Positions 3,717 through 36,780 of a DNA stretch of 37,751 bases are shown here, piece after piece. Position numbers and translations under genes: made by a program. The notes below the pieces were generated by a model. It worked only from the letters and a program-made list of their open reading frames with translations, was not told the DNA's origin and did not search any database. The stretch is from Nocardia sp. BSTN01 (GTDB lineage: Bacteria > Actinomycetota > Actinomycetes > Mycobacteriales > Mycobacteriaceae), in assembly GCF_015354405.1 (NCBI RefSeq), contig NZ_JADKYP010000061.1, positions 1 through 37,751 on the forward strand, written 5' to 3'. Positions within the stretch are counted from its first letter, which is position 1; each line of letters opens with the position of its first letter.

Positions 3717-3812
3717 AGCCATTAACTGACACACCCGCCATCGGTGGGAGCAGGACTCCAGGGTGCCGCCGCTACAGTTCGGGCACTTGTTGTGTGGAGA
3801 AGAGACGGGGTC

Positions 3813-5267
3813 ATGATAATCGACCAGCTCGAGGTGTCGTATGGCGAACAGTGGGGTTCGTGGCGCGGGACCGCTCATCCGACGCCGATGTCATCGACGG
3901 TCGCGGCGCGCAGACACGATCTCGGCGACTCCTACGCGGTGTTGCTGGCCGCGCACGAACGTCCGCTGCTGCGGGCCGAGTACTGGGGGAAGGACTGGGC
4001 GGCGCGGCAGCCGTGGCGGGTGTTTCTGTTCGACGACAGGTCCTTCGAGGTGCGGCTGCTCGAGTTGGAGCCGCACTCCGAGGGATGGTTGCGCATCGGT
4101 CGCGAGACGCGGTGGGAGTATGCCGACGCGGATCAGTACAGGTCAAGACAGGGCGAGGAAAGCACATCTGCCCCAGCAGACGAATTCCTGGTTCCGGCAC
4201 CGGCATTCGGCGACTGGCAGGTGTTCGCGCGATTGCTGGTCGCCCAGGGCGACGAGGTCGCCGACTCGGTGACGCTGTGTGATCGCCCTTCCCCTGCGGA
4301 GCAGTGGCAGAGCCCGCCGCGCGAGCACATGCCCGAGGATTACCGCCGATTGCTGGCCGAGAGCGGGCCGGGGACTCTCGCCGGCGTGCTGCGTCTGCTC
4401 GCGCCGGATGGCCCCGAGGGTTTCGATATGCGTTCAGAGCAACAGCGGCATCCACAGCCGGATCCGGACCCACTGGAGTGGGAGGAACCGAAGGCGCTGT
4501 TGTGGGGCGTCTTCGACAGCGGAGAGACCTGTTGGTGGCTGCCCATACGCGACACGCCGAGTCAATGGCTGGTCATTGTGGCGGGCAAGGGATTTCAGCA
4601 ACTCAACATCAGCACGACCGAATTCCTGCGCCGCTGGGTCGCGGGCGAGCTGGATCTGCCGGTCCTCTCGTTGCCACCGGTGGCCCGCACATGGACGGTG
4701 GAACCCGCCGGGCAGCCGGTCACGGTCCCCGACTTGCCCTCGGTCGGTCGAGATCCGCTGGCGCAGTTGGCGACCATCATTGGTCCCGGAGTCGCGCGAA
4801 CCTACGACTGGTCGCACATCGAACAGGAACTGGGGCTCCCGCTGCCCACCGACTACAAGCGTCTCGCCGAGTCCTACGGCGGCCCTGCTGGATTTCCACC
4901 CTTTCTCGGTGTGGAACTCAATGGCATCTTCGTGGCCGATCCGAACGAGCTCGCCTCAGAGCACGAAGGCTACGAACCGACGTTCGAAGATGACTACATG
5001 TGGTATGAGGTCGGCTCGGGACGCCAGGGGGGCAGACTGGCGTGTGCCAGTACCGAAGGCCGACAGATCGTAGGTTGGGACACCAGCGGCCCCGACATCG
5101 ACGCCTGGCCCGTGCTCGACGTCTACACCGGCGAGGTGTTGGCCCGCACCCTCACCGAGTTGCTCGTCGCCGAATTGACCGGCACCGGGCCGGGATTGAC
5201 CGGATTCGGATCCGGCGACCCGGCCGAAATGGCCCGGCCGATATGGGGTCCCGACAAGCCTTGGTGA
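3813..5267 (+). CDS. SUKH (SMI1/KNR4)-like protein, two domains
   Basis: The protein is 484 residues from ATG 3813, chosen because AGAAGAGACGGGG precedes it; an in-frame start at 3744 would add 23 unlikely residues. Two SUKH-like cores are visible. One is around residue 173 (MPEDYRRLLAESGPGTLAG) and one around residue 340 (LPTDYKRLAESYGGP), each with the LP-x-DY-x-x-L-x-x-x-GG pattern. The N-terminal 160 residues are beta-rich and Trp-rich. SUKH proteins are commonly immunity proteins against contact-dependent or polymorphic toxins. No matching toxin lies beside it, and it sits between two Tn3 remnants, so it may be an orphan immunity gene carried by mobile DNA. The family call is from pattern only. 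Confidence 0.7.
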   Translation: MIIDQLEVSYGEQWGSWRGTAHPTPMSSTVAARRHDLGDSYAVLLAAHERPLLRAEYWGKDWAARQPWRVFLFDDRSFEVRLLELEPHSEGWLRIGRETRWEYADADQYRSRQGEESTSAPADEFLVPAPAFGDWQVFARLLVAQGDEVADSVTLCDRPSPAEQWQSPPREHMPEDYRRLLAESGPGTLAGVLRLLAPDGPEGFDMRSEQQRHPQPDPDPLEWEEPKALLWGVFDSGETCWWLPIRDTPSQWLVIVAGKGFQQLNISTTEFLRRWVAGELDLPVLSLPPVARTWTVEPAGQPVTVPDLPSVGRDPLAQLATIIGPGVARTYDWSHIEQELGLPLPTDYKRLAESYGGPAGFPPFLGVELNGIFVADPNELASEHEGYEPTFEDDYMWYEVGSGRQGGRLACASTEGRQIVGWDTSGPDIDAWPVLDVYTGEVLARTLTELLVAELTGTGPGLTGFGSGDPAEMARPIWGPDKPW

Positions 5268-5695: not shown

Positions 5696-6007
5696 TTAGG
5701 TGCGGTGTAGCGGGACGATTGTGGTGTCTGTGGGGATGCTAGGCCGGGCGGCTTCGGGGGTGGTGAGGAGCGCGACGATGGTGATGGCTTCTCCGCAGTG
5801 TGGACAGCTGCGAGTGGCTGCCGGCTGGGGTGCGGGCAGGGGCTCACGGGCCGGCTCGGCGGGGATGTTGACAGGGCGTTGGTTGCGTCGGTATTGAGCG
5901 GCGCTTTTGCATCGGGCGCTGCAGTAGATGCGGCGAGGGTGGGTTGCGGTGAACTCTGTCCAGCAGACCTGGCAGTTTCGAGTGACCGGCGCTGTTTCAG
6001 GAGACAC
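5696..6007 (-). CDS. Small zinc-finger accessory protein of the IS21 element
   Basis: The 103-residue protein has two Cys clusters. CQVCW...YCSARCKSAAQYRRN at about 12-42 is a zinc-ribbon-like start with a basic helix, and CPHCG lies near residue 72. Its start overlaps the istB stop by 11 bp, which indicates translational coupling. It ends about 20 bp inside the left inner repeat. A role in DNA binding or regulation of transposition is inferred; I know of no demonstrated function. Confidence 0.55.
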   Translation of the reverse strand: MSPETAPVTRNCQVCWTEFTATHPRRIYCSARCKSAAQYRRNQRPVNIPAEPAREPLPAPQPAATRSCPHCGEAITIVALLTTPEAARPSIPTDTTIVPLHRT

Positions 6008-6785
6008 GGGCGTTCACCGCCTTTCGCAGATTCTCGGCGGTTTCGCGGTGGTGGCGCAGTCGGTAGCTGGGTCCGTCGATGCCGACAACGGTTGCCCTGT
6101 GCAACAGTCTGTCCAGCATGGCCGCCGCGACTGTCGCGTCTCCGAACGCGGTTGCCCAATCAGCGATTCCGACATTCGTGGTCAAGATCGTGGACGATTT
6201 GAGGTAGCGCTGGTTGATCACCTGGAACAGTGCCGAGGCGCCGTCGCCGGGCAGCGGGAGGTAGCCGAGTTCATCGATGACGAGAAGTTTGGGTCCGGCG
6301 AAGAACCGCATGCAGGTGTGCCAGCGGCCCTCGAGGGCGGCCTTGTGGCATTTGGCGGCGAGTTCTGCGGCGGTGGTGAAGTAGACACGGTGACCGGCTT
6401 CGACCGCGCCGCGGGCCAGGGCGACGGTGAGCATGGTCTTGCCGACTCCGGGCGGGCCGACGAACAACACGTTCGCGGCGTCGTCGAGGAACCGCAGGCT
6501 GGCCAGGTCGCGGATGAGTATCTCGTCGACGCCGGGCTGGGCGGAGAAGTCGAAGTCGTTGAGTGTCCAGGGTTCGGGAAGGCAAGCGAACCGCAGCCGA
6601 GAGGTGAGCCGGCGTGATTCGGTGGCGGTGACCTCGATCTCGAGCAGCCTCTCCAGGGCCGCGGTGATCGAGATGTTCTCCGACCGCGCGGCGTCGAGGA
6701 TGCGGGGAAGGGCCTCGGCGGCATCGCCGAGTTTCAGGTAGGACAGGTGAGCGCGCAGCTGCTGATAGCGACGTGCTTCGCTCAT
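5997..6785 (-). CDS. istB: IstB transposition helper ATPase
   Basis: This AAA+ ATPase assembles on target DNA and recruits or activates IstA. From ATG 6785 it is 262 residues, the usual family size; an earlier in-frame start at 6887 would overlap istA and add a non-family leader. Walker A GPPGVGKT is at 110-117 and Walker B LLVIDELGYLPL at 168-179. The N-terminal helical domain (about 1-80) and the C-terminal Arg-rich segment (LLHRATVVGIDGPSYRLR) are present. It lies 34 bp downstream of istA. No disruption is seen. Confidence 0.95.
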   Translation of the reverse strand: MSEARRYQQLRAHLSYLKLGDAAEALPRILDAARSENISITAALERLLEIEVTATESRRLTSRLRFACLPEPWTLNDFDFSAQPGVDEILIRDLASLRFLDDAANVLFVGPPGVGKTMLTVALARGAVEAGHRVYFTTAAELAAKCHKAALEGRWHTCMRFFAGPKLLVIDELGYLPLPGDGASALFQVINQRYLKSSTILTTNVGIADWATAFGDATVAAAMLDRLLHRATVVGIDGPSYRLRHHRETAENLRKAVNARVS

Positions 6786-6819
6786 CTGCGGGATCGTTTT
6801 CTCCAACGGGATTTCGTCC

Positions 6820-8184
6820 TTACTGTTCTTGTTGTTCAATCGGAACACGTTGCGGGGCAACGGAAAGCCGTGCGGCGGTGGCCGCATAGACGGCGAGATC
6901 GATCACCACCTTCTGGGCGGGATCTGCAGAGCCCGAGTGGCCGCGCAGCCGCGCGGACTCGGCCAGAGCGGCCTCCGATATCGGACGCCGGGTCTTGTGG
7001 GTGCAGGGTTTGCTCGCATCGAACGCGGCCAGCACCGAGCGCTCCATGGCCACGACATGGCCCTCGTCGCGGACCACTCGCCCGGCGCCGTCGGGAGCGC
7101 GCAGGTGCGCGGCGACGATAGCGCCGGAAGAAGTGGCCAGGTGCAGGTGCTCGGCGCCGAGCCGGTGGATCACCGTCACCAGCGCGCCGGGCATGCCGGG
7201 TGGAACCGAGTACTGGTTGCCGCGCCAGGCGACCAACCCTTGCGCGGTGACCTTGCGCTGTTCACGGACCTCAGCGGGATAGGCCGATGGTGCTGGACGC
7301 AGCGATTCGGCCGCGGCCAGCTCACCGACGGTGGTGCGGTGTCCGTCGCGGACGCGTTTGCGGCTGTCCAGACGCGCGCAGAGCCGATCCAGCGCAACCT
7401 GGGCCTCGGCGATCGAGACGTCATCGCCGATGGTGCGCCACCATCGTTGCGCTGCAGCATGATTGGACTTCTCCACCACTCCTTTGCGGTTGCCGTGGCG
7501 AGGTGGGCAGATATCGATACCGACCGAATAGTGTTTCGCGACACCGGAAAACGCCGGGGTGATCCGCCCCGACTCCGGGTAACAGACCGTGGACATCCGG
7601 TCGAATCGCCACCGTCTCGTCACCCCACCCAATCGGATAGTGACCTGGTCGAGCGCTTCGACCAGGTGGGCGAAGTCCTCGGCCGGCGCCAAGACGCCGC
7701 GCCACAAACTCGAATGAGCCAACGCGCCGACCAGCAGATGCGCATGCCGCCCGGATCCCCAGCGCGCCGGTGGATCCGGCAACTCCACCCAATCCCACTG
7801 TGTTTCCTCACCGGGAGGGTGCGCGATGATCGCGACATCACGGCCCCGGGCTGCGTGGCAGGGCTCGCAGTGCGGGCGAAGCTCCAGCTTCCGGATCGCC
7901 GTGGTCAACGATTGATACGAGCCGGTGAACCCCAGCGCCACGATCTCGTCGAACAGCGTCGACGCCCACAAATGCGGGTCGTCGGCCAACCGGATCCGGC
8001 AGTAGTCGATGAACGGATCGATCAGCAACGGTGCCGTCCGGACCCGCTAGCCCGGCACACGCTCACCATTCAGATAAGCGCGAACCGTCTTGCGGTCCAA
8101 CCCCGTATGCCGAGCGATCGCCGATATCGACCACCCCTGATCACGAAGTGCATGCACTTCCACATCGCCCTCCAGCGACAGCAT
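6820..8184 (-). pseudogene. istA: IstA transposase interrupted by one in-frame TAG
   Basis: Reading from ATG 8184 gives the IstA N-terminal helix-turn-helix (MLSLEGDVEVHALRDQG, then ISAIARHTGLDRKTVRAYL). An amber codon follows at 8049-8047, and the same frame then continues at once as RVRTAPLLIDPF through the DDE domain to 6820. About 454 residues would result if the TAG were read as an amino acid, a normal IstA length. The DDE core includes TQWDWVELP, RMSTVCYPESGRI and RKGVVEKSNH. The C-terminal beta barrel region (WRGNQYSVPPGMPG) is intact. A restart at ATG 8028 would give a transposase without its DNA-binding domain. The cause may be a recent nonsense mutation, readthrough or a sequence error. 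Confidence 0.9.
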
Positions 8185-10898: not shown

Positions 10899-12650
10899 AT
10901 GGCAATAGAGATTCCTCACAAGGTAGCGTTGTTTCTCAATTTCGCTGGGGTGCCCTATCCCGATATAAACGAGGACCAAGTGCGCGCGCTGGGCAAACAT
11001 GTAAGGACCTTCGCGAATAGCGTGGCCGACACTCACGCCAGCGCAACCGGCGTTATCAAAGATATGGGTAACGTCTACTCTGGCTACTCCTACCGGGCGC
11101 TAGTTGCGGCATGGGCGCAGATGTCGAAGTCTCATATGGCCGATCTCGACGCGGCATGTCGGGTGGTTGCTGACGCTCTGGATGCGGCTGCTGTGGTCAT
11201 CAGGGTGACCAAGATCGCGGTCCTTGCCGAACTTGCTGGATTGGCAGCGAGTTTCGCGGCTGCGACGGCCGGATCAATCGTAACCGGCGGTCTGTCGGCT
11301 GCAATCGAACAGGCGATTGTTACAGCTGCACGCAAGATTTGCGAGGTCATGGAACAGGCGCTGATCGCGTACATTCTGTTCGAAGTCATCGAGAAGGCGA
11401 TGGAGCCGCTCCGGGATGTAATCGACCGTATCGTTCGCGGAATAGTGGACGAGGCAGCGGGGCACTTGCTTGAGCCTCCGCCGGGTCAGGCCGAACACGT
11501 GCTGTATATCGAGCCCGACGAGGTCATCAACCACGCTCAAACCCTCGAGATGTTGGCGGACGACATGCTACAACACGCGTCGAATTTTGCTAAGAAGGTT
11601 GCGGCGCTCGACTTCACATCCCGCGCGTTTGACGATAGCGCGGATGTTGGACCCGCCGTCCTGGATCCGTCCGGACACGCCACATCCCAGCAGATTCCGC
11701 ACTCCCGTCCCACTGCGCTCACGAGCTCTGCTCTCCACACAGCTCCGCCCAATGCGCTGAACACGGACTCGAACGCTTCCGAATCTCCGCGCGACCACGT
11801 TGGCGCGGGCACGGCCCACAGGGAGACCGACGCCTCCCAGTCCCAGGTTCATCATCCTCGAGCCGTCGCCCCTACGGCGCGTTCGGAGGTTCCATCGAAC
11901 GGCAATTTCGATGATGTGCGCCCGAATTCGGCGACGACCGGTGACACATCCGACAGACGCATCGGGCCGGCGACAGCAAATCCTGGTGGTGCCTCCAGCT
12001 CCGGAGATGTCGTGGCAAGTGCAGAGTCTATCGGGCAGGTGATGGCGAACCCACCCGATACCACACAGCCGGGCCACGGCGATACGTCGGCGCGTAATGC
12101 AGAACAGTGGCCGATGGCTGATCTGAGGGCAGCATCGACTACGGACCAGTTGGGGGGACTCCCGTGGTCGACCGGACAGGATCGGCCGGGTGGTCCTGCC
12201 GGGGAGCCAGGTAGCGTCGAAGGCCACCCGGCGCGTGCCGAGTTGAAACCTGGAGTGTCTCCCGAAAGGAAATCCGGTCAAAGCATCACGCCCTGGCGTC
12301 GGCGTACTAGTCGACATCGCACCCGAGCAGAGTCCGTCCGCAAGGCTAAACCGAGTGGTCCGACACCATGGACCGGAGGTGGTACTTCACCGAGAACAGA
12401 GCCTGCGACGGTCTCGCGACAGGATGGACGATCGACGCCCCGACCGGCCGAAGAGTCGGCGAAGGCTCCGAAAAATGGTGTCGGAGCAAACGCTCCGGAC
12501 GCCGACCCTATTTTGGAGGAGAGCTTGGGCCAGGCCGGCGCAGTGCAAGCGCCGAAATCGGCACATCAGGAGCGTCCGACAGTCGTGGCGCCGTCGATCT
12601 CTGGCGATAAACGTCCAGAACTAAGCCTCGAAAACCTACCGGGGCTGTGA
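10899..12650 (+). CDS. WXG100-like (T7SS) carrier protein with disordered tail
   Basis: The protein is 583 residues from ATG 10899, with GGAGG about 10 bases upstream. Residues 1-95 form a WXG100-like helical hairpin (MAIEIPHKVALFLNFAGVPY at the start, AAWAQM near the turn) of the type found at the N-terminus of CpnT-like secreted polymorphic toxins in Actinobacteria. Residues about 100-200 are hydrophobic and helical (LAELAGLAASFAAATAGSIV). From about 240 to the end the chain is a Ser/Pro/Thr/Gly-rich linker with no folded toxin domain. The usual layout is WXG domain, linker, C-terminal toxin; here the toxin part is missing, and a separate frame (12771) follows. Type VII export is inferred. 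Confidence 0.7.
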   Translation: MAIEIPHKVALFLNFAGVPYPDINEDQVRALGKHVRTFANSVADTHASATGVIKDMGNVYSGYSYRALVAAWAQMSKSHMADLDAACRVVADALDAAAVVIRVTKIAVLAELAGLAASFAAATAGSIVTGGLSAAIEQAIVTAARKICEVMEQALIAYILFEVIEKAMEPLRDVIDRIVRGIVDEAAGHLLEPPPGQAEHVLYIEPDEVINHAQTLEMLADDMLQHASNFAKKVAALDFTSRAFDDSADVGPAVLDPSGHATSQQIPHSRPTALTSSALHTAPPNALNTDSNASESPRDHVGAGTAHRETDASQSQVHHPRAVAPTARSEVPSNGNFDDVRPNSATTGDTSDRRIGPATANPGGASSSGDVVASAESIGQVMANPPDTTQPGHGDTSARNAEQWPMADLRAASTTDQLGGLPWSTGQDRPGGPAGEPGSVEGHPARAELKPGVSPERKSGQSITPWRRRTSRHRTRAESVRKAKPSGPTPWTGGGTSPRTEPATVSRQDGRSTPRPAEESAKAPKNGVGANAPDADPILEESLGQAGAVQAPKSAHQERPTVVAPSISGDKRPELSLENLPGL

Positions 12651-12770
12651 CCATCCAGTGTAGGACGTAGATGGGCTCCGTAGTCTAAGCGTCGTTCAGG
12701 AGATCATTCAGACTATTCCTCGAACAGATCATGTCCAATCCGGTTTGCAGGTGCGCTGGGAACAGCCCGC

Positions 12771-13949
12771 TTGACGAGGGCAACCCGTGAACCGATTTTC
12801 AGAATAGATAAGGATAATCGACTGTTAGGAGAAGAAGCGGCTTCGATGCTGCGTAAGGCGGCTAGAGAAATGGGGAGGTGGCTTCACGAATTCGGTCGTA
12901 ACTACCCGAAAGCTGGTTCAGTGCTGCGCGAAGCGGCTGAGGTAACTGTGGAGACGGATGCCGTAACCGCGGAAGCCATTCACTCCGCCCTCCCAGATGT
13001 GGCCGTTCGGGAAGTGGATCGAGCTTCGCCCTGGTCGGAAGAGCTTCGGCTACCGGCCCTCGAACGTGAAGGCAATGGGTCTCTCGGCTTCCGGGGTTAT
13101 CCAAATCCACCGGAGTTCAGAAAAGGGCTACCGCTCGATGCGAAGAGCGCGGCGCCCCATTGGATCACCTACGGCGGACCTGACCGTCAACATGTTCTAG
13201 TAGGTACGGTTCATCGCTCTGCCCCAGAGCATCCTCAGACGATAGCGCTGCTTCGGCAAGCCGAGGATTGGATTGGCAGAACAGAAAGTTACGGAGATAA
13301 TCGCGTAATGTTTATCGAGGGGCGGGTCGGGCGCACGCAAAGAAAGTCCTATAGCAGCATTGAGCACGCTGCCGAAGATGGCGAGATGGCGATGCTGGAG
13401 TATTTGGCGGATATCCATGGCATCCGCAAGATCTCTCTGGAGGGAGAACCGGGGTTACAAGAGGCACGTCTCCTGCGGGCAGGAATTCCGCCGCAGAGCC
13501 TTGCCCTGCATCATGTACTACGCATGGCACCGCAGGCGGCTCGACGGGGTGAGGACTTCAATTCTCAGATTCCGTCGATATTTCGAGGTTTGCATTTTAT
13601 GCGAACCGAAGGAATGACTGCTGACGATGCGGTAAACGCGTTCCAAAATATTATGGCTACACATTATCCAGACATGGGATTTCCTCGCAAATTCACCTCC
13701 GAGGATGTCGAATGGATAAGTAAGCAGCAATTGGGCAAGCTAGTTGTTCCGCAAGGTGCTCAAACCGAGTTGGAAAGAACAGCAGTAGCGGTCGATCGGA
13801 CACGACACGATGTCGCGCAAGAATTGTTGGGAAAATTTCAGGCGGCGGGGCGTGCGACCTTTACTGCCTATGGACAAGCCCACATTCCATATATTGTGCC
13901 GAAGCTCGCCGCATTCAAGGGGGCATCGACGGTAGCACTGACTGCTTGA
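12771..13949 (+). CDS. Tiki/TraB-like (GxxH) putative hydrolase, possible T7SS effector domain
   Basis: The 392-residue frame lies in the same reading frame as the upstream WXG100-like gene, after stops at 12648 and 12681. The start is uncertain: TTG 12771 or ATG 12846. Motifs resemble the Tiki/TraB/ChaN/EreA superfamily: GTVH (145-148) after a beta strand, FIEG (181-184), LEGEP (223-227) and a final GQAH (368-371). In that superfamily the two GxxH motifs and acidic residues form the metal or catalytic site. Residues 1-115 are a helical linker. The DNA is visibly more AT-rich than its surroundings, a sign of transfer. It could be a separated toxin domain for the upstream carrier; no immunity gene is recognised next to it. 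Confidence 0.5.
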   Translation: MTRATREPIFRIDKDNRLLGEEAASMLRKAAREMGRWLHEFGRNYPKAGSVLREAAEVTVETDAVTAEAIHSALPDVAVREVDRASPWSEELRLPALEREGNGSLGFRGYPNPPEFRKGLPLDAKSAAPHWITYGGPDRQHVLVGTVHRSAPEHPQTIALLRQAEDWIGRTESYGDNRVMFIEGRVGRTQRKSYSSIEHAAEDGEMAMLEYLADIHGIRKISLEGEPGLQEARLLRAGIPPQSLALHHVLRMAPQAARRGEDFNSQIPSIFRGLHFMRTEGMTADDAVNAFQNIMATHYPDMGFPRKFTSEDVEWISKQQLGKLVVPQGAQTELERTAVAVDRTRHDVAQELLGKFQAAGRATFTAYGQAHIPYIVPKLAAFKGASTVALTA

Positions 13950-28801: not shown

Positions 28802-29629
28802 GTGTTCGTTGATCCGGCTGGGGTGTGGGGGGAGTCGTCGGAGTGGGACGAGACGCTGCACTACGAGTCTGCTGTGGACATCGTCACAAGTCTCATGGCG
28901 CAATGCACGGCGGTTGAAACGCTGGCCGAGCGGGCGGATGACTCCGTCGTCCGAGACGATATGGGCTTCCTGCGCCGGGCATACCTCGCTGAACTGTCCA
29001 AACTGGCTCCGGACAACAGAGCCGCGGTGGCCAGGGTAGTTCGGGACAACGGGACGAGACTAGCGCATGTTATCGAAGCCTCGCGGCTACAACTGTCGGC
29101 GCCGCCCGACGCCGGACACTGTCGGCTCGGTTACGAGGAACATGCGACTGTTTTCGAAAACCGTATTGCCCCGGAGACTCTTGCCAGGCTCCAAACCAGT
29201 GAGCAACCTATAGCTGTGATCGTTGCAGGCCAGCCCGGGTCCGGGAAGACAACGACGCTTCGCCACTTGTACCGCAACTGGGACGGTGCTGCTCCGGCCT
29301 TCATCGACCCAGAGTTGTACTTGGCGTACCATCCGCGCAGCTGGGATCTCGTACTCGCGGACGACGCCCAGGCTGGTGACATCGTCATGGGAGATGCGCT
29401 GGGCTGGGCAGCCATGGCAGTCGAACTCGCGATCCAGCACCACAGCGATGTGTTACTCGAGGTCGGGACTAACCTTCCTGACGATGCGAACGCTTTCGCC
29501 ACTGTCTTCCAGGAGGCCGGATATCGAGTGGAGGTAGAGCTGATGGCGGTACCGGAGGCGATCAGCAAACTCCACCTCATGATTCGCTACCATTGTCGTC
29601 ACGGAAACTGGCAGGTCCTCTCGCTGTAA
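28802..29629 (+). CDS. Zeta-toxin-like kinase, short C-terminus
   Basis: The 275-residue protein starts at GTG 28802. Residues 1-130 are helical. Walker A GQPGSGKT is at 143-150, and the substrate segment IDPELYLAYHP at 168-178 is the zeta-type acidic-Tyr pattern. The later helix (EVGTNLPDDANAFATVFQEA) and the strand with MAVPEAISKL follow. The chain ends soon after at MIRYHCRHGNWQ, whereas related proteins continue through an R-Y-x-P...HD segment like that of the gene at 27479. The protein therefore looks C-terminally truncated and may be inactive. It is the second zeta-like gene in tandem; the 288-bp gap between them holds no antitoxin I can recognise. Confidence 0.75.
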   Translation: MFVDPAGVWGESSEWDETLHYESAVDIVTSLMAQCTAVETLAERADDSVVRDDMGFLRRAYLAELSKLAPDNRAAVARVVRDNGTRLAHVIEASRLQLSAPPDAGHCRLGYEEHATVFENRIAPETLARLQTSEQPIAVIVAGQPGSGKTTTLRHLYRNWDGAAPAFIDPELYLAYHPRSWDLVLADDAQAGDIVMGDALGWAAMAVELAIQHHSDVLLEVGTNLPDDANAFATVFQEAGYRVEVELMAVPEAISKLHLMIRYHCRHGNWQVLSL

Positions 29630-33120: not shown

Positions 33121-33459
33121 TTAGTGGGTGTTGTTGTAAGCCTCAATGATGTTTTTATGAATTCGTCCGCGGCTGGATACCTGGTATCCGCTGTCGCGTG
33201 CCCAATCCCGGATCACCGCGGTCTGTTGCTTGTTGGCCGTGGTGCGGGTTTCGATGGCCTTAGTCTTACCGCGCGGGATGCGTCCTACCCTTCGGGCAGG
33301 CAGGGTCCAGGGCTCCAACGCCGCTCGTAGCTTGCCAGCGTTCTTCAGCGACAGATCGATCTCGTATTCCACGCCGTCGATACTGAAGTGAACCGTCTCA
33401 TCGGCTTTGGACTTCCCGTCGTAGTCGTCCACCAGCTCGACGATGACCCTCTTCGCCAT
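33121..33459 (-). CDS. lsr2: Lsr2-family nucleoid-associated protein
   Basis: The 112-residue protein starts at ATG 33459 and has the full family length. The N-terminal dimerisation domain runs MAKRVIVELVDDYDGKSKAD through EYEIDLSLKNAGKLRAALEP. A basic linker and the C-terminal DNA-binding domain follow (IRDWARDSGYQVSSRGRIHK). SSRGRI corresponds to the RGR-type AT hook that contacts the minor groove. Lsr2 silences AT-rich foreign DNA in Actinobacteria. Given the foreign DNA on both sides, this may be an accessory copy carried by an island rather than the chromosomal master copy. The gene starts 3 bp inside the IS3 relic boundary. Confidence 0.95.
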   Translation of the reverse strand: MAKRVIVELVDDYDGKSKADETVHFSIDGVEYEIDLSLKNAGKLRAALEPWTLPARRVGRIPRGKTKAIETRTTANKQQTAVIRDWARDSGYQVSSRGRIHKNIIEAYNNTH

Positions 33460-33870: not shown

Positions 33871-34065
33871 GCGTCCAGGATGGCCTCTGGATTTCCCACC
33901 TTTGGAGATTGGTAATGAGTTGTGACGCAATACACTTCAGAGGCCAGGTGACGACAAGTCACGGTATCAGGTTATATCCTCCGTCCATTTCATGCATCGT
34001 CGGCCAGGGTTCGTCTGAGGCTGCCTTCATGCTGAAATGCGGGGGTTGTGTCAGGAGGTATCACC

Positions 34066-34212
34066 ATGGGAAATCTTCCCGAGCTCGCCATGGCCAACTC
34101 GGAGCGGCTGCCGGAGGGGGCGAGTCCCGCGCTGCGTGCCGCGCTCGAGCGTCGCCTGAATCAGACTGAGCGACCCGGGGGGTTCAATTCGTTCATCGGC
34201 TCCGGTAAGTAA
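34066..34212 (+). CDS. FxSxx-type ribosomal peptide precursor
   Basis: The 48-residue peptide starts at ATG 34066 with a perfect AGGAGG seven bases upstream, the best ribosome site in the window. The leader is helical and charged (MGNLPELAMANSERLPEG, then SPALRAALERRLNQ), followed by a PGG turn. The C-terminal core is FNSFIGSGK, containing F40-N41-S42-F43-I44, which matches the FxSxx motif of precursors modified by FxsB-type radical SAM enzymes. In the known family the peptide ends at that motif; here GSGK extends it by four residues. The maturase and an exporter follow directly, which supports the call. Confidence 0.8.
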   Translation: MGNLPELAMANSERLPEGASPALRAALERRLNQTERPGGFNSFIGSGK

Positions 34213-34233
34213 TCGGCTGCGAAGCGTCGGCCA

Positions 34234-34263
34234 CCGGTGGGCTCGGCGAGCCGAGCCCACCGG
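34234..34263 (+). terminator. Intergenic hairpin between precursor and maturase
   Basis: CCGGTGGGCTCGGC (34234-34247) and GCCGAGCCCACCGG (34250-34263) are exact 14-bp inverted arms around GA. It lies between the precursor stop and the maturase ribosome site. No U-run follows. Such hairpins often cause partial termination or protect the 3' end of the upstream mRNA, giving more precursor than enzyme. The role is inferred. Confidence 0.6.
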
Positions 34264-34291
34264 GTAGGCCGCACTGCCCGAGGAGTGGGAA

Positions 34292-35536
34292 ATGGGATCG
34301 GTTTCGCTGTCGTTGAGTCATTTCCGAGAGCGAGTTCTGTGGCCCGCCGTTGGATTAGATGTTGCTGAACTCCGTCGCGGCGGTTGGGAACCGTTGCCGT
34401 TCAAGGAGTTCATCATCAAGATCCACAGCCGGTGCAACTTGGCGTGTGACTACTGCTATGTCTACGAAATGGCCGATCAGAGTTGGCGTGAGCAGCCGAA
34501 GACGATGTCTCGACAGGTTTTCGATGATGCCTGCCGAATGATCGGTGAACACGCTCGCGTCTTCGGTTTGCCCGCTGTCGATCTCGTGTTACACGGTGGT
34601 GAACCGTTACTTGTCGGACATCGAGATCTGGAGTACTTTGCCCGGCGAGCGCGAGAGCTGATAGAGCCGATCGCTGAGGTGCGAGTTGGGATGCAAACCA
34701 ATGGTGTCCTGCTCGATGAAGAATTCCTTCGCATTTGTGATCGATGGCGTATCCGGATCGGAGTCAGTATTGATGGTGACGAAAAGGCGAACGATCGGCA
34801 CCGCCGTGATCGGCGGGGTTCGGAAAGCTACTCCCGGGTCGCCGACGGGTTGGCGAAGCTGACTACCAGCAACTGGCGTCACCTATTCTCCGGACTACTG
34901 TGCACGATCGACATCGACAACGACCCGGCACAGACCTACGAGGCGCTCACGAAGTTCGATCCGCCAGCTGTCGACTTCCTTATGCCGCACGGCAATTGGG
35001 TGACACCGCCACCAGCATCAGGTATCCACGACAACACCACACCATACGCCGACTGGCTGATCAAGATATTCGATCGGTGGTACAAAGCGCCGGTGCTGGA
35101 AACCCGAGTACGTCTCTTCGATGACATCATCGACCTCCTACTCGGCGGTGACGCGGTATCGGAGACGGTAGGACTGGCACCGGTTCGACTCGCCGTGATC
35201 GAGACAAACGGCACCTTAGAGCAGGTCGACGAATTGAAGTCGACATTCGCGGGTGCGACCGAACTCTCGCCAACAGGTGTGGGTAACCCGCTCGATCTGG
35301 CTCTACAGGAGCCCTCGATCGCCGCTCGCCAGATCGGTGCTGCCGCGTTGAGCGACACCTGCCTGTCTTGCCCGGTGCATTCCGTATGTGGCGGTGGGCA
35401 CTACGTCCACCGCTATCGCGAGGCCACCGGATTCCGTAATCCATCGGTGTACTGCGCCGATCTGAAAAAGCTGATCGAGCACATCGAATCGGCCGTCAGT
35501 GCGGATTTGGGGTTGCTCGATACCTATGGGGCGTGA
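34292..35536 (+). CDS. fxsB: FxsB-type radical SAM/SPASM peptide maturase
   Basis: The 414-residue protein starts at ATG 34292 with GAGGAG upstream. The radical SAM cluster motif is C48-x3-C52-x2-C55 in SRCNLACDYCYVYEMAD, followed by the GGEP-type motif HGGEPLL (101-107). The N-terminal phrase PFKEFIIKIHSRCNL and the C-terminal SPASM cysteines (C357, C360, C366, C388 in DTCLSCPVHSVCGGG and SVYCADL) fit the FxsB family. These enzymes use S-adenosylmethionine and auxiliary iron-sulfur clusters to cross-link precursor side chains, with three-residue cyclophanes reported for the family. The Phe-Asn-Ser of the adjacent precursor is the likely target. It overlaps the exporter gene by 4 bp. Confidence 0.92.
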   Translation: MGSVSLSLSHFRERVLWPAVGLDVAELRRGGWEPLPFKEFIIKIHSRCNLACDYCYVYEMADQSWREQPKTMSRQVFDDACRMIGEHARVFGLPAVDLVLHGGEPLLVGHRDLEYFARRARELIEPIAEVRVGMQTNGVLLDEEFLRICDRWRIRIGVSIDGDEKANDRHRRDRRGSESYSRVADGLAKLTTSNWRHLFSGLLCTIDIDNDPAQTYEALTKFDPPAVDFLMPHGNWVTPPPASGIHDNTTPYADWLIKIFDRWYKAPVLETRVRLFDDIIDLLLGGDAVSETVGLAPVRLAVIETNGTLEQVDELKSTFAGATELSPTGVGNPLDLALQEPSIAARQIGAAALSDTCLSCPVHSVCGGGHYVHRYREATGFRNPSVYCADLKKLIEHIESAVSADLGLLDTYGA

Positions 35537-36780
35537 TGAATAGCTCCAGGCTGCTCGCCAACCGGAACTTCATTCTGCTGTGGTCCGGTAATGCGGCATC
35601 GCTGGTGGGGTTCCACGGGGTCCGGATCGCCTATCCGTTGCTAGTTCTCGCTGATACCGGCTCGCCGACGGCGGCAGGGTGGATCGGGTTCGCCTTGAAC
35701 CTGCCCGGGCTGCTCTTTCAACTGGCCGCCGGGGCGGTCGCGGACAGTTCCCATCGCATACACACGCTGATTCGGTGCCAGTACATCGGGTTGGCCGCGA
35801 CCGGCGTCGCAGCTATTGCGATCGGAGCGCACCTGCCCCGTCTGTGGCTGATACTCCTGGCCGCCGCGTTCATCGAGGGCAGCGTCTATGTCTTCGGCGG
35901 TCTGTGCGAACTCGGCGCGATCCGCGATGTGGTGTCCACCGCACAGCGCCCCTCCGCATTCTCCTTCCTCGAAGCCGAACAACCGATAGCAATCCTGATC
36001 GGGCGAGCCACCGGTGCGGCGATTTTCGGTGTAGCCCCCTGGCTACCGTTCCTCGCCAACGCCGCATCGTCTCTGTACTGCCTGGTCACGCTGAGAATGA
36101 TCCGTTCGAACGTGCCTGCACCTGCACCTGTCGAGACCGGCAGCAGTGCCAACATCGTCGACGGTATACGCGTTGTGTGGACCCAACCGTTCTTGCGAAC
36201 ATCGACGTTGATCAGCGGGTTGTCGAACATCGTCATCCAGGTCGTCCTGCTGCTGATCCTGGTGGAACTACACAGCAGCCTGTATCCCGCATGGACGGCT
36301 GGGCTGGTACTCGGCATGGCAGGTGTCGGTGGAGTCCTCGGCGCGGCGGCCGCCTCGCGACTCACCGCGCACGTTTCTCCTCAACGCCTCTATCGGGCGT
36401 CGCTGTGGGCATGGACAGTCCTGCTTTTGCCGATCGAGCTGAGCACCAGCCCTTTCGTCCTGGCAGCATGCTGGTGCGGAATCGGTGGGGTAGGCGTGCT
36501 GACCAATGTGGCGCTAACCATCTACCGAGTCGAGGCAATACCCGAGCACACGCTCCTGCGCGCTGTCGCGGCGATGACGCTCGTGTGCGAGGGAGCGGTC
36601 GCACTCGGTGCACTGGCCGCAGGCTACCTACTCGCCACGGCCGGGATCGTACCTACGCGAGGGATAATGCTCGCCGCGATGTGCGCACTGGCCGCCTACG
36701 CAAGCACCCACACAGCAACCAGCAAAGATGATTCGGTCTTCATACAGCCGTCATCCGACCCGGAGAACAAACAACACTAA
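35533..36780 (+). CDS. MFS transporter, probable exporter of the modified peptide
   Basis: The 415-residue protein has about 12 hydrophobic helices, beginning NFILLWSGNAASLVGFHGVR and including GWIGFALNLPGLLFQLAAGA and a central IVIQVVLLLILVELHSSLYP. The overall pattern, with a loop AGAVADSSHRIHTLIRCQY after helix 2, is that of small-molecule or macrolide-type MFS exporters (MFS_3/MefA-like). Its ATG overlaps the maturase stop, so it is translationally coupled. The operon position implies export of, or resistance to, the FxSxx peptide. No dedicated leader peptidase is encoded nearby. Confidence 0.88.
   Translation: MMNSSRLLANRNFILLWSGNAASLVGFHGVRIAYPLLVLADTGSPTAAGWIGFALNLPGLLFQLAAGAVADSSHRIHTLIRCQYIGLAATGVAAIAIGAHLPRLWLILLAAAFIEGSVYVFGGLCELGAIRDVVSTAQRPSAFSFLEAEQPIAILIGRATGAAIFGVAPWLPFLANAASSLYCLVTLRMIRSNVPAPAPVETGSSANIVDGIRVVWTQPFLRTSTLISGLSNIVIQVVLLLILVELHSSLYPAWTAGLVLGMAGVGGVLGAAAASRLTAHVSPQRLYRASLWAWTVLLLPIELSTSPFVLAACWCGIGGVGVLTNVALTIYRVEAIPEHTLLRAVAAMTLVCEGAVALGALAAGYLLATAGIVPTRGIMLAAMCALAAYASTHTATSKDDSVFIQPSSDPENKQH

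Follow-up and report, generated by a model that had tools for sequence, protein, structure and literature searches.

What is made by three genes that lie close to the end of a contig of Nocardia sp. BSTN01: a very short reading frame, a radical SAM/SPASM enzyme gene and a transporter gene? The stretch analyzed here (NZ_JADKYP010000061.1, 37,751 nt, hereafter the window) is part of a 7.8-Mb genome, and its closest named relatives at the locus are Nocardia. An earlier note, drawn from the letters alone, had described a 48-residue precursor peptide ending in FNSFIGSGK behind the ribosome-binding sequence AGGAGG, a radical SAM/SPASM enzyme with its cluster cysteines, and a coupled transporter gene of the major facilitator superfamily (MFS); all of these were confirmed. 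The layout is that of a three-gene operon (precursor, maturase, MFS), and all three frames are intact in the window. Based on the results below, we suggest, with a probability of about 0.82, that this is an operon for a triceptide-type ribosomally synthesized and post-translationally modified peptide (RiPP), in which a Phe–Ser cyclophane would be formed on FNSFI, the leader cleaved off and the product exported by the MFS protein. The features of the locus are as follows.

34053..34058 (+), Shine–Dalgarno sequence AGGAGG of the precursor gene, 7 nt 5′ of the ATG at 34066
34066..34212 (+), precursor gene, 48 aa, from the ATG at 34066 to the TAA ending at 34212; leader MGNLPELA..SPALRAALERRL, core FNSFI, tail GSGK
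34183..34197 (+), core FNSFI; a cross-link from the Phe-1 ring to the Ser-3 beta carbon is predicted from the sequence and, for the chemistry, by analogy with MscB (available part of PMC11002830)
34198..34209 (+), C-terminal tail GSGK, four residues; the tail length is four in 21 of 23 precursors
34234..34263 (+), hairpin between the precursor and maturase genes; no T run, not conserved
34292..35536 (+), FxsB-family radical SAM/SPASM maturase, 414 aa; TIGR04269 459.6 bits, ChlB (9gm3) 238 bits
35536..36780 (+), MFS transporter (PF07690, PF05977), 414 aa; 1-base overlap with the maturase TGA; ATG at 35536, alternative in-frame GTG start at 35533

The maturase and its clade in Nocardia

The maturase scored 459.6 bits against TIGR04269 (FxsB), above the curated family threshold of 370, and the next model, YhhB, remained below its own cut-off. 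IPR026335 is taken here as the InterPro counterpart of TIGR04269, and TIGR04268 as the model for FxSxx-COOH precursors. Cys48, Cys52 and Cys55 (CNLACDYC) as well as Cys357, Cys360 and Cys366 are Cys in 76/76 aligned sequences, the window included, and Cys388 is Cys in 75/76; these are the three radical SAM cysteines and four of the SPASM type, three of which are invariant. Given the score and the retained cysteines, the proposal that the enzyme is an FxsB-type radical SAM/SPASM protein was borne out. The closest solved structure by sequence is ChlB (9gm3, 238 bits over 362 residues), a cyclophane synthase, or a “multiple cyclophane synthase” according to a paper title in a reference list. MscB, of IPR026335, forms a C4(Phe)–Cβ(Ser) bond, as stated in the available part of PMC11002830. 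The cross-link chemistry is predicted on the grounds of TIGR04269 membership, the conserved cluster cysteines, ChlB as the best structure and the MscB bond.

In a genus-wide search, 35 of 151 genomes gave a match at E ≤1e-30; 21 of these had a near full-length match with at least 61% identity, and one more (G069) had a partial match with 71%. Among 397 genomes drawn evenly across the order, identity peaked at 57% in the best matches from other genera. When 40 maturases were placed in a tree, all rows with at least about 62% identity grouped in one clade of 28 (support 100/99), a supported Nocardia clade of the window and 27 relatives (62–80% identity). The window pairs with locus L021 of N. 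australiensis (80%; 91/73) and then with L105 (97/93). Same-genus maturases also fall outside the clade (L107, L113, L114, L116); adjoining it, both weakly, are L107 (86/51) and then L007 (81/36), while L140 was not in the tree. With L006 (64%, not in the tree) the clade comprises 26 distinct loci with 29 maturases. Maturase pieces of less than about 330 aligned residues (L078, and L081 split over two frames) and the duplicate L112 were dropped from the tree and counts; of loci L001–L020, all but L006 and L007 were taken only in the absence of a longer copy. The clade loci include nine with multi-core precursors, 13 with single-core precursors and four (L022, L033, L082, L111) in which no intact precursor immediately precedes the full maturase.

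Three loci (L023, L032, L108) have two maturases each, one followed by an HExxH gene and the MFS gene and the other by neither, with a seemingly single intact FKSFI precursor between them. Decayed precursor and maturase fragments were seen upstream of an intact maturase in L108 (about 12418–12860) and L022 (3226–3800).

Decayed copies among several relatives, together with the transposase genes within the window, give some ground for asking whether the locus is itself decaying and yields no product. Such decay is highly improbable, as the three frames are intact, all cluster cysteines are kept, and nonsynonymous divergence (dN) from L021 is below synonymous divergence (dS) both for the MFS gene (dN 0.16, dS 1.02) and for the precursor (dN 0.32, dS 0.61).

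Cores and tails of the precursor peptides

A precursor profile lacking the window row still found the window frame at E 5e-22, the next best frame being at 0.15, so the frame is beyond chance. When the two nearest rows were also removed, the window frame was found at E 6.6e-21, and with the window row included at E 3.0e-23. In addition, dN was lower than dS in all eight precursor pairs compared, which are short and not independent. The precursors beside clade maturases share a common leader and FxSFI, and contain one, two, three or nine cores.

In all, 42 cores in 23 precursors were gathered by BLAST and by pattern, reading-frame and profile searches. Left out of the 23 were the two copies of L107 (FCSFI plus six residues), that of L033 on the opposite strand (FCSFI plus seven), the second copy of L110 (LHSFI plus four), the degenerate FQAFI plus three of L022, the frameshifted FNSFI plus four of L108 and the orphan L134 (FNSFI plus four). 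The L107 precursors (4619–5016) are near-identical and in tandem, with Cys at position two. Asn occupies position 2 in 30/42 cores and Ile position 5 in 41/42; at position 4 there are 33 Phe, seven Ala (all in L106), one Thr (L028) and one Ile (L035).

The second Phe of FNSF had been regarded as a distinguishing trait. It is not, since terminal-core relatives read FNSFL, FGSFV and FSSFV, and within the clade position 4 is Ala in seven of the nine L106 repeats, Thr in L028 and Ile in L035. It is very unlikely that this residue serves a second ring, with both F1-N2-S3 and F4-I5-G6 bridged, and the idea was rejected as the principal explanation. It would agree with the presence of F4 in 31 of the 33 cores outside L106 and with the word “multiple” in the ChlB title. 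However, the residue after I5 is Gly in the window, which has no beta carbon; elsewhere it varies (G, A, S, N, E, D, V, T) and is absent in the last L027 core. The same replacements of F4 speak against it, and the terminal-core peptides of L007 and L140 end one residue past F4, which makes a second ring impossible there.

FxSxx does not form the last five residues of the window precursor, as GSGK comes after FNSFI. Exactly four residues follow the last core in 21/23 precursors, six follow it in L108, and none in L027, which ends FNSFI-COOH in the canonical form and is the only one of the 23 with a terminal last core. The tail sequences vary (GSGK, ASGK, NAGE, EPGV, APVK and others). With its length constrained and its sequence variable, the tail may act as a spacer or follower; a sequence signal seems less likely. 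Thus, the extension by GSGK is real but not peculiar to the window copy, as nearly all clade members have one. An extension unique to the clade was also considered and rejected, because L107, a Nocardia locus outside the clade, has six residues after FCSFI. Non-terminal cores occur in candidate precursors of more distant loci as well, L045 and L049 (FGAFNQHSSSPW) and L008 (FNSRHNGG). What is particular to the clade is the constant tail length of four, not extension as such. The candidates of L045 (933–1124) and L049 (5686–5859), found at other FxsB loci, share the same ending, which is neither terminal nor FxS.

To what extent terminal cores are the rule elsewhere was judged from a mechanical scan of the surroundings of 48 more distant maturases for terminal FxSxx, in which a ribosome-site match was required, so that the count is a lower bound. 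Matches were obtained at five maturases (L007, L044, L058, L061, L062), that of L044 probably by chance. In the further loci L140–L144, all scanned, FxSxx ends lie by the maturase only in L140. L007 and L140 have two to three separate precursors each, with terminal cores (FNSFL, FGSFV, FTSFA, FSSFV). The contrast with “canonical” terminal ends rests on few loci. None of six precursors compared with the NCBIfam precursor models matched at E 0.1, and the terminal-core L007 peptide, expected to match, was among the six; the only NCBIfam match of the window precursor was to an unrelated model at E 0.041, far below the cut-off.

The window precursor has one core, and multi-core precursors were found at 9/26 clade loci. 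The longest series, in L106, has nine cores within about 4400–4790, mostly HAFNSAIANDD repeats, the last two being FNSFI. Trypsin-like cleavage before GN in multi-core precursors (KR/GNFNSFIENK/GNFNSFI, slashes marking the putative cuts) is left here as an idea. It would fit L006, L024, L027, L029, L030, L031 and L034 and, in part, L109 (one of three cores comes after Ser); L106 with its repeats does not fit, and single-core precursors fit partially.

The interval between the precursor and maturase genes contains the hairpin noted earlier, CCGGTGGGCTCGGC..GCCGAGCCCACCGG (34234–34263). It is strong, with 14-nt arms, but folds as 13 bp with a 4-nt loop rather than as 14 bp. For the 86-nt interval, a folding energy of -49.1 kcal/mol (z -4.2) was obtained, and no T run follows the hairpin in the window sequence. 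A perfect stem of at least 10 bp (loops of 3–8 nt) is present in only 5/21 intervals examined, the window included, and the nearest relative, L021, has no stem over 4 bp. A clade-wide conserved attenuator was therefore rejected, and the hairpin may be an expression-tuning element in the window.

Transporter lineage, hydroxylase gene and operon loss

In a tree of 34 MFS rows, the window protein belongs to a clade of 25 (support 100/100), composed of 18 operon-linked rows, six genes standing alone (L127–L131, L133) and L033, which has an HExxH gene next to it in the opposite orientation. The clade is divided into two halves, each with support (99/98 and 98/88). For all 17 operon-linked rows shared by the two trees, MFS and maturase agree in their side of the single-core/multi-core split. 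With 18 of 25 members operon-linked and a lineage that follows the maturase split, the MFS belongs to the system, as the earlier note had supposed. Nine paralogous MFS proteins (42–49% identity to that of the window) form a separate clade; those of L028, L107 and L115 are encoded on the strand opposite to an FxsB maturase gene, at a distance of no more than about 4 kb. Chance recruitment of a general pump was considered too; the clade of operon-linked MFS weakens this idea, but the nine paralogues lie outside that clade, with three of them near FxsB maturases.

The same data bear on a different role for the peptide. Like the peptides proposed for other FxSxx systems, it might serve within the cell as signal or effector in a conflict system, and the MFS substrate would then be unrelated. 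FxSxx peptides and radical SAM genes do occur in actinobacterial VMAP-ternary conflict systems, according to the available part of PMC7159879, and this MFS is missing from 8/26 clade loci. Nevertheless, such a role is unlikely here, since the MFS is in the operon at 18/26 clade loci and its lineage tracks the maturase split.

The frames of all six lone MFS genes are open to the end. Four of these genes are preceded by remnants: hydroxylase pieces of 116 residues in L127 (E 4e-32) and 43 residues in L128 (E 5e-5), 55 residues of maturase tail in L131 (E 1e-8) and, in L133, 211 maturase residues without the radical SAM cysteines, adjoining an apparent LuxR piece (39 residues, E 0.003). L133 is near a contig end, and an assembly fault is possible there. 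Nothing convincing was found before the L129 and L130 genes in the search for remnants. L131 and L133 have the same flanks as the intact operons L109 and L106 (a protein of 851 residues, ClpB-like by eye, 93–99% identity), and L131 has about 0.6 kb where L109 has about 4.9 kb. Judging from these common flanks, the operon is deleted or truncated in place in L131 and L133 with the MFS frame kept. The orphan pair L129/L130 gave dN 0.16 and dS 0.77 (ratio 0.21), and four operon MFS pairs gave ratios of 0.13 to 0.28. Two ratios exceed those of the four operon pairs: 0.39 for L131 against its operon sister L109 (dN 0.087, dS 0.225) and 0.30 for L133 against L106. Constraint may be relaxed there.

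The two core types differ in their neighbors. In all eight multi-core loci with long flanks, a gene of about 900 codons for a LuxR-type regulator lies upstream (helix-turn-helix confirmed by profile in two loci) and the MFS gene directly downstream, and tblastn found no HExxH gene in them; the ninth, L006, with short flanks, has the MFS. By tblastn, an HExxH gene is downstream of the maturase in 10/13 single-core loci, including the sister L105, and two of the proteins were confirmed by profile as TIGR04267 (aKG-HExxH-type peptide beta-hydroxylase). The single-core loci without it are the window, L021 and L110. No aKG-HExxH gene was found at the window locus, and the window genome (99.65% complete) gave no TIGR04267 match. 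The minimum number of changes on the maturase tree is one for core type (23 rows labelled), three for HExxH (24 rows) and five for adjacent MFS (25 rows). These would be few events, and the tree alone cannot tell gain from loss. It had been stated that the operon is reduced to three genes; it is indeed compact, and this looks like the loss of the hydroxylase gene carried by L105 and most single-core loci, but the layout itself is ordinary: a peptide, a radical SAM enzyme and an optional transporter are usual for cyclophane and thioether RiPPs (PMC9062424, available part). As noted earlier, no further tailoring gene was seen between the MFS gene and the contig end; the contig stops 971 bp past the MFS gene, and a further downstream gene may lie beyond it in this genome.

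Among the other genes of the window, an Lsr2 gene with both Pfam domains (33121–33459, -) lies upstream of the precursor and is divergent from it. Lsr2-type silencers often control acquired clusters. A protein with a Zeta-toxin-like kinase domain (28802–29629, +; PF06414, 93.7 bits), a WXG100-like protein (10899–12650, +) and a SMI1/KNR4-domain protein (3744–5267, +), the last two separate and about 5.6 kb apart, were also observed. Mobile elements on the contig are an IS110-type transposase gene (316–1701, +) and a gene for an IstB-like protein (5997–6887, -).

Proposed product and its significance

We suggest the following pathway. The ribosome would make the 48-residue precursor, whose leader is presumably recognized by the FxsB-family enzyme. 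The enzyme would then join the Phe-1 ring to the Ser-3 beta carbon in FNSFI, with the loss of two hydrogens, to give a three-residue cyclophane; in multi-core relatives, an FxS-type unit would be made two, three or nine times per precursor. A host protease encoded outside the operon may cut off the leader, and perhaps the four-residue tail too, after which the coupled MFS would export the product. The computed [M+H]+ values are 1323.680 (unmodified) and 1321.665 (one cross-link) for the GluC piece RPGGFNSFIGSGK, and 1908.956 and 1906.941, respectively, for the trypsin piece LNQTERPGGFNSFIGSGK.

Several points weigh against this pathway. F1 and S3 are present in 42/42 cores, but this is partly built in, as both belonged to the collecting pattern; the paralogous L110 precursor reads LHSFI, and the degenerate L022 copy reads FQAFI. 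The leader protease gene is absent from the operon. At eight of the 26 clade loci, no member of this MFS clade lies downstream in the same orientation, so that export by it is not universal. Homologous loci without a conserved precursor frame, which the earlier note had named as grounds for refutation, were not found overall, though 7/29 clade maturases are not directly preceded by an intact precursor (those of L022, L033, L082 and L111, and the first maturases of L023, L032 and L108; in L033 the contig end cuts the locus there).

The best reading remains a secreted Phe–Ser triceptide with a dedicated exporter that perhaps also confers immunity. More tentatively, the product could be a peptide for competition within Nocardia, with the MFS as both exporter and immunity pump: lineages that delete the operon would keep the pump, so that non-producers are protected, up to nine cores would raise the dose, and the four-residue tail would be a follower removed at maturation. 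An open pump gene kept after the loss of production is the pattern expected of an immunity gene. On the other side, the six lone MFS cases, two of them without a remnant, come from perhaps five events, eight loci have the maturase without this MFS, the orphan L131 has a higher dN/dS, and an unrelated second MFS substrate would give an identical pattern.

The system resembles FxsB/MscB (TIGR04269) in its enzyme above the cut-off, in the Phe-x-Ser core with a hydrophobic fifth residue and in the upstream precursor. It differs from FxSxx-COOH systems in that the core is followed by four residues in 21/23 precursors, one to nine cores occur, and an MFS accompanies 18/26 loci; the window precursor thus lacks the defining C-terminal feature, with a layout otherwise alike. 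ChlB/ChlBH (PDB 9gm3, 9gmc) is the closest solved structure, and its paper title suggests several cyclophanes per ChlB peptide. However, ChlB/ChlBH is a fused radical SAM and aKG-HExxH protein, whereas in the sister loci the hydroxylase has a gene of its own, and the window genome lacks one. An FxSxx-type peptide and a radical SAM/SPASM gene are shared with the VMAP-ternary FxSxx processing systems, as far as the available part of PMC7159879 describes them; unlike these, the window has no zincin-like HExxH gene and has an MFS instead, and the multi-core loci have the LuxR-type regulator (about 900 aa).

In the literature searched, we found no paper on Nocardia FxsB loci with an MFS, or on those with tail-extended or multi-core FxS precursors. 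Very likely, the three genes serve to make and export a small peptide stapled between Phe and Ser. The chemistry would be of a known kind, but the clade is set apart by how its peptide is laid out and by an exporter retained in some relatives that have lost the rest. The series from one to nine cores with variable spacers, and the paired loci with and without HExxH, are natural variants for enzyme work, and the minimal window operon of precursor, enzyme and exporter is easy to express. According to the available part of a 2025 paper (PMC12257519), the bioactivities of triceptides are not yet elucidated. The present clade offers a handle on their function: one MFS lineage is found at 18/26 loci, and two species have lost the operon in place and kept the MFS, which makes a role as a competition peptide testable.

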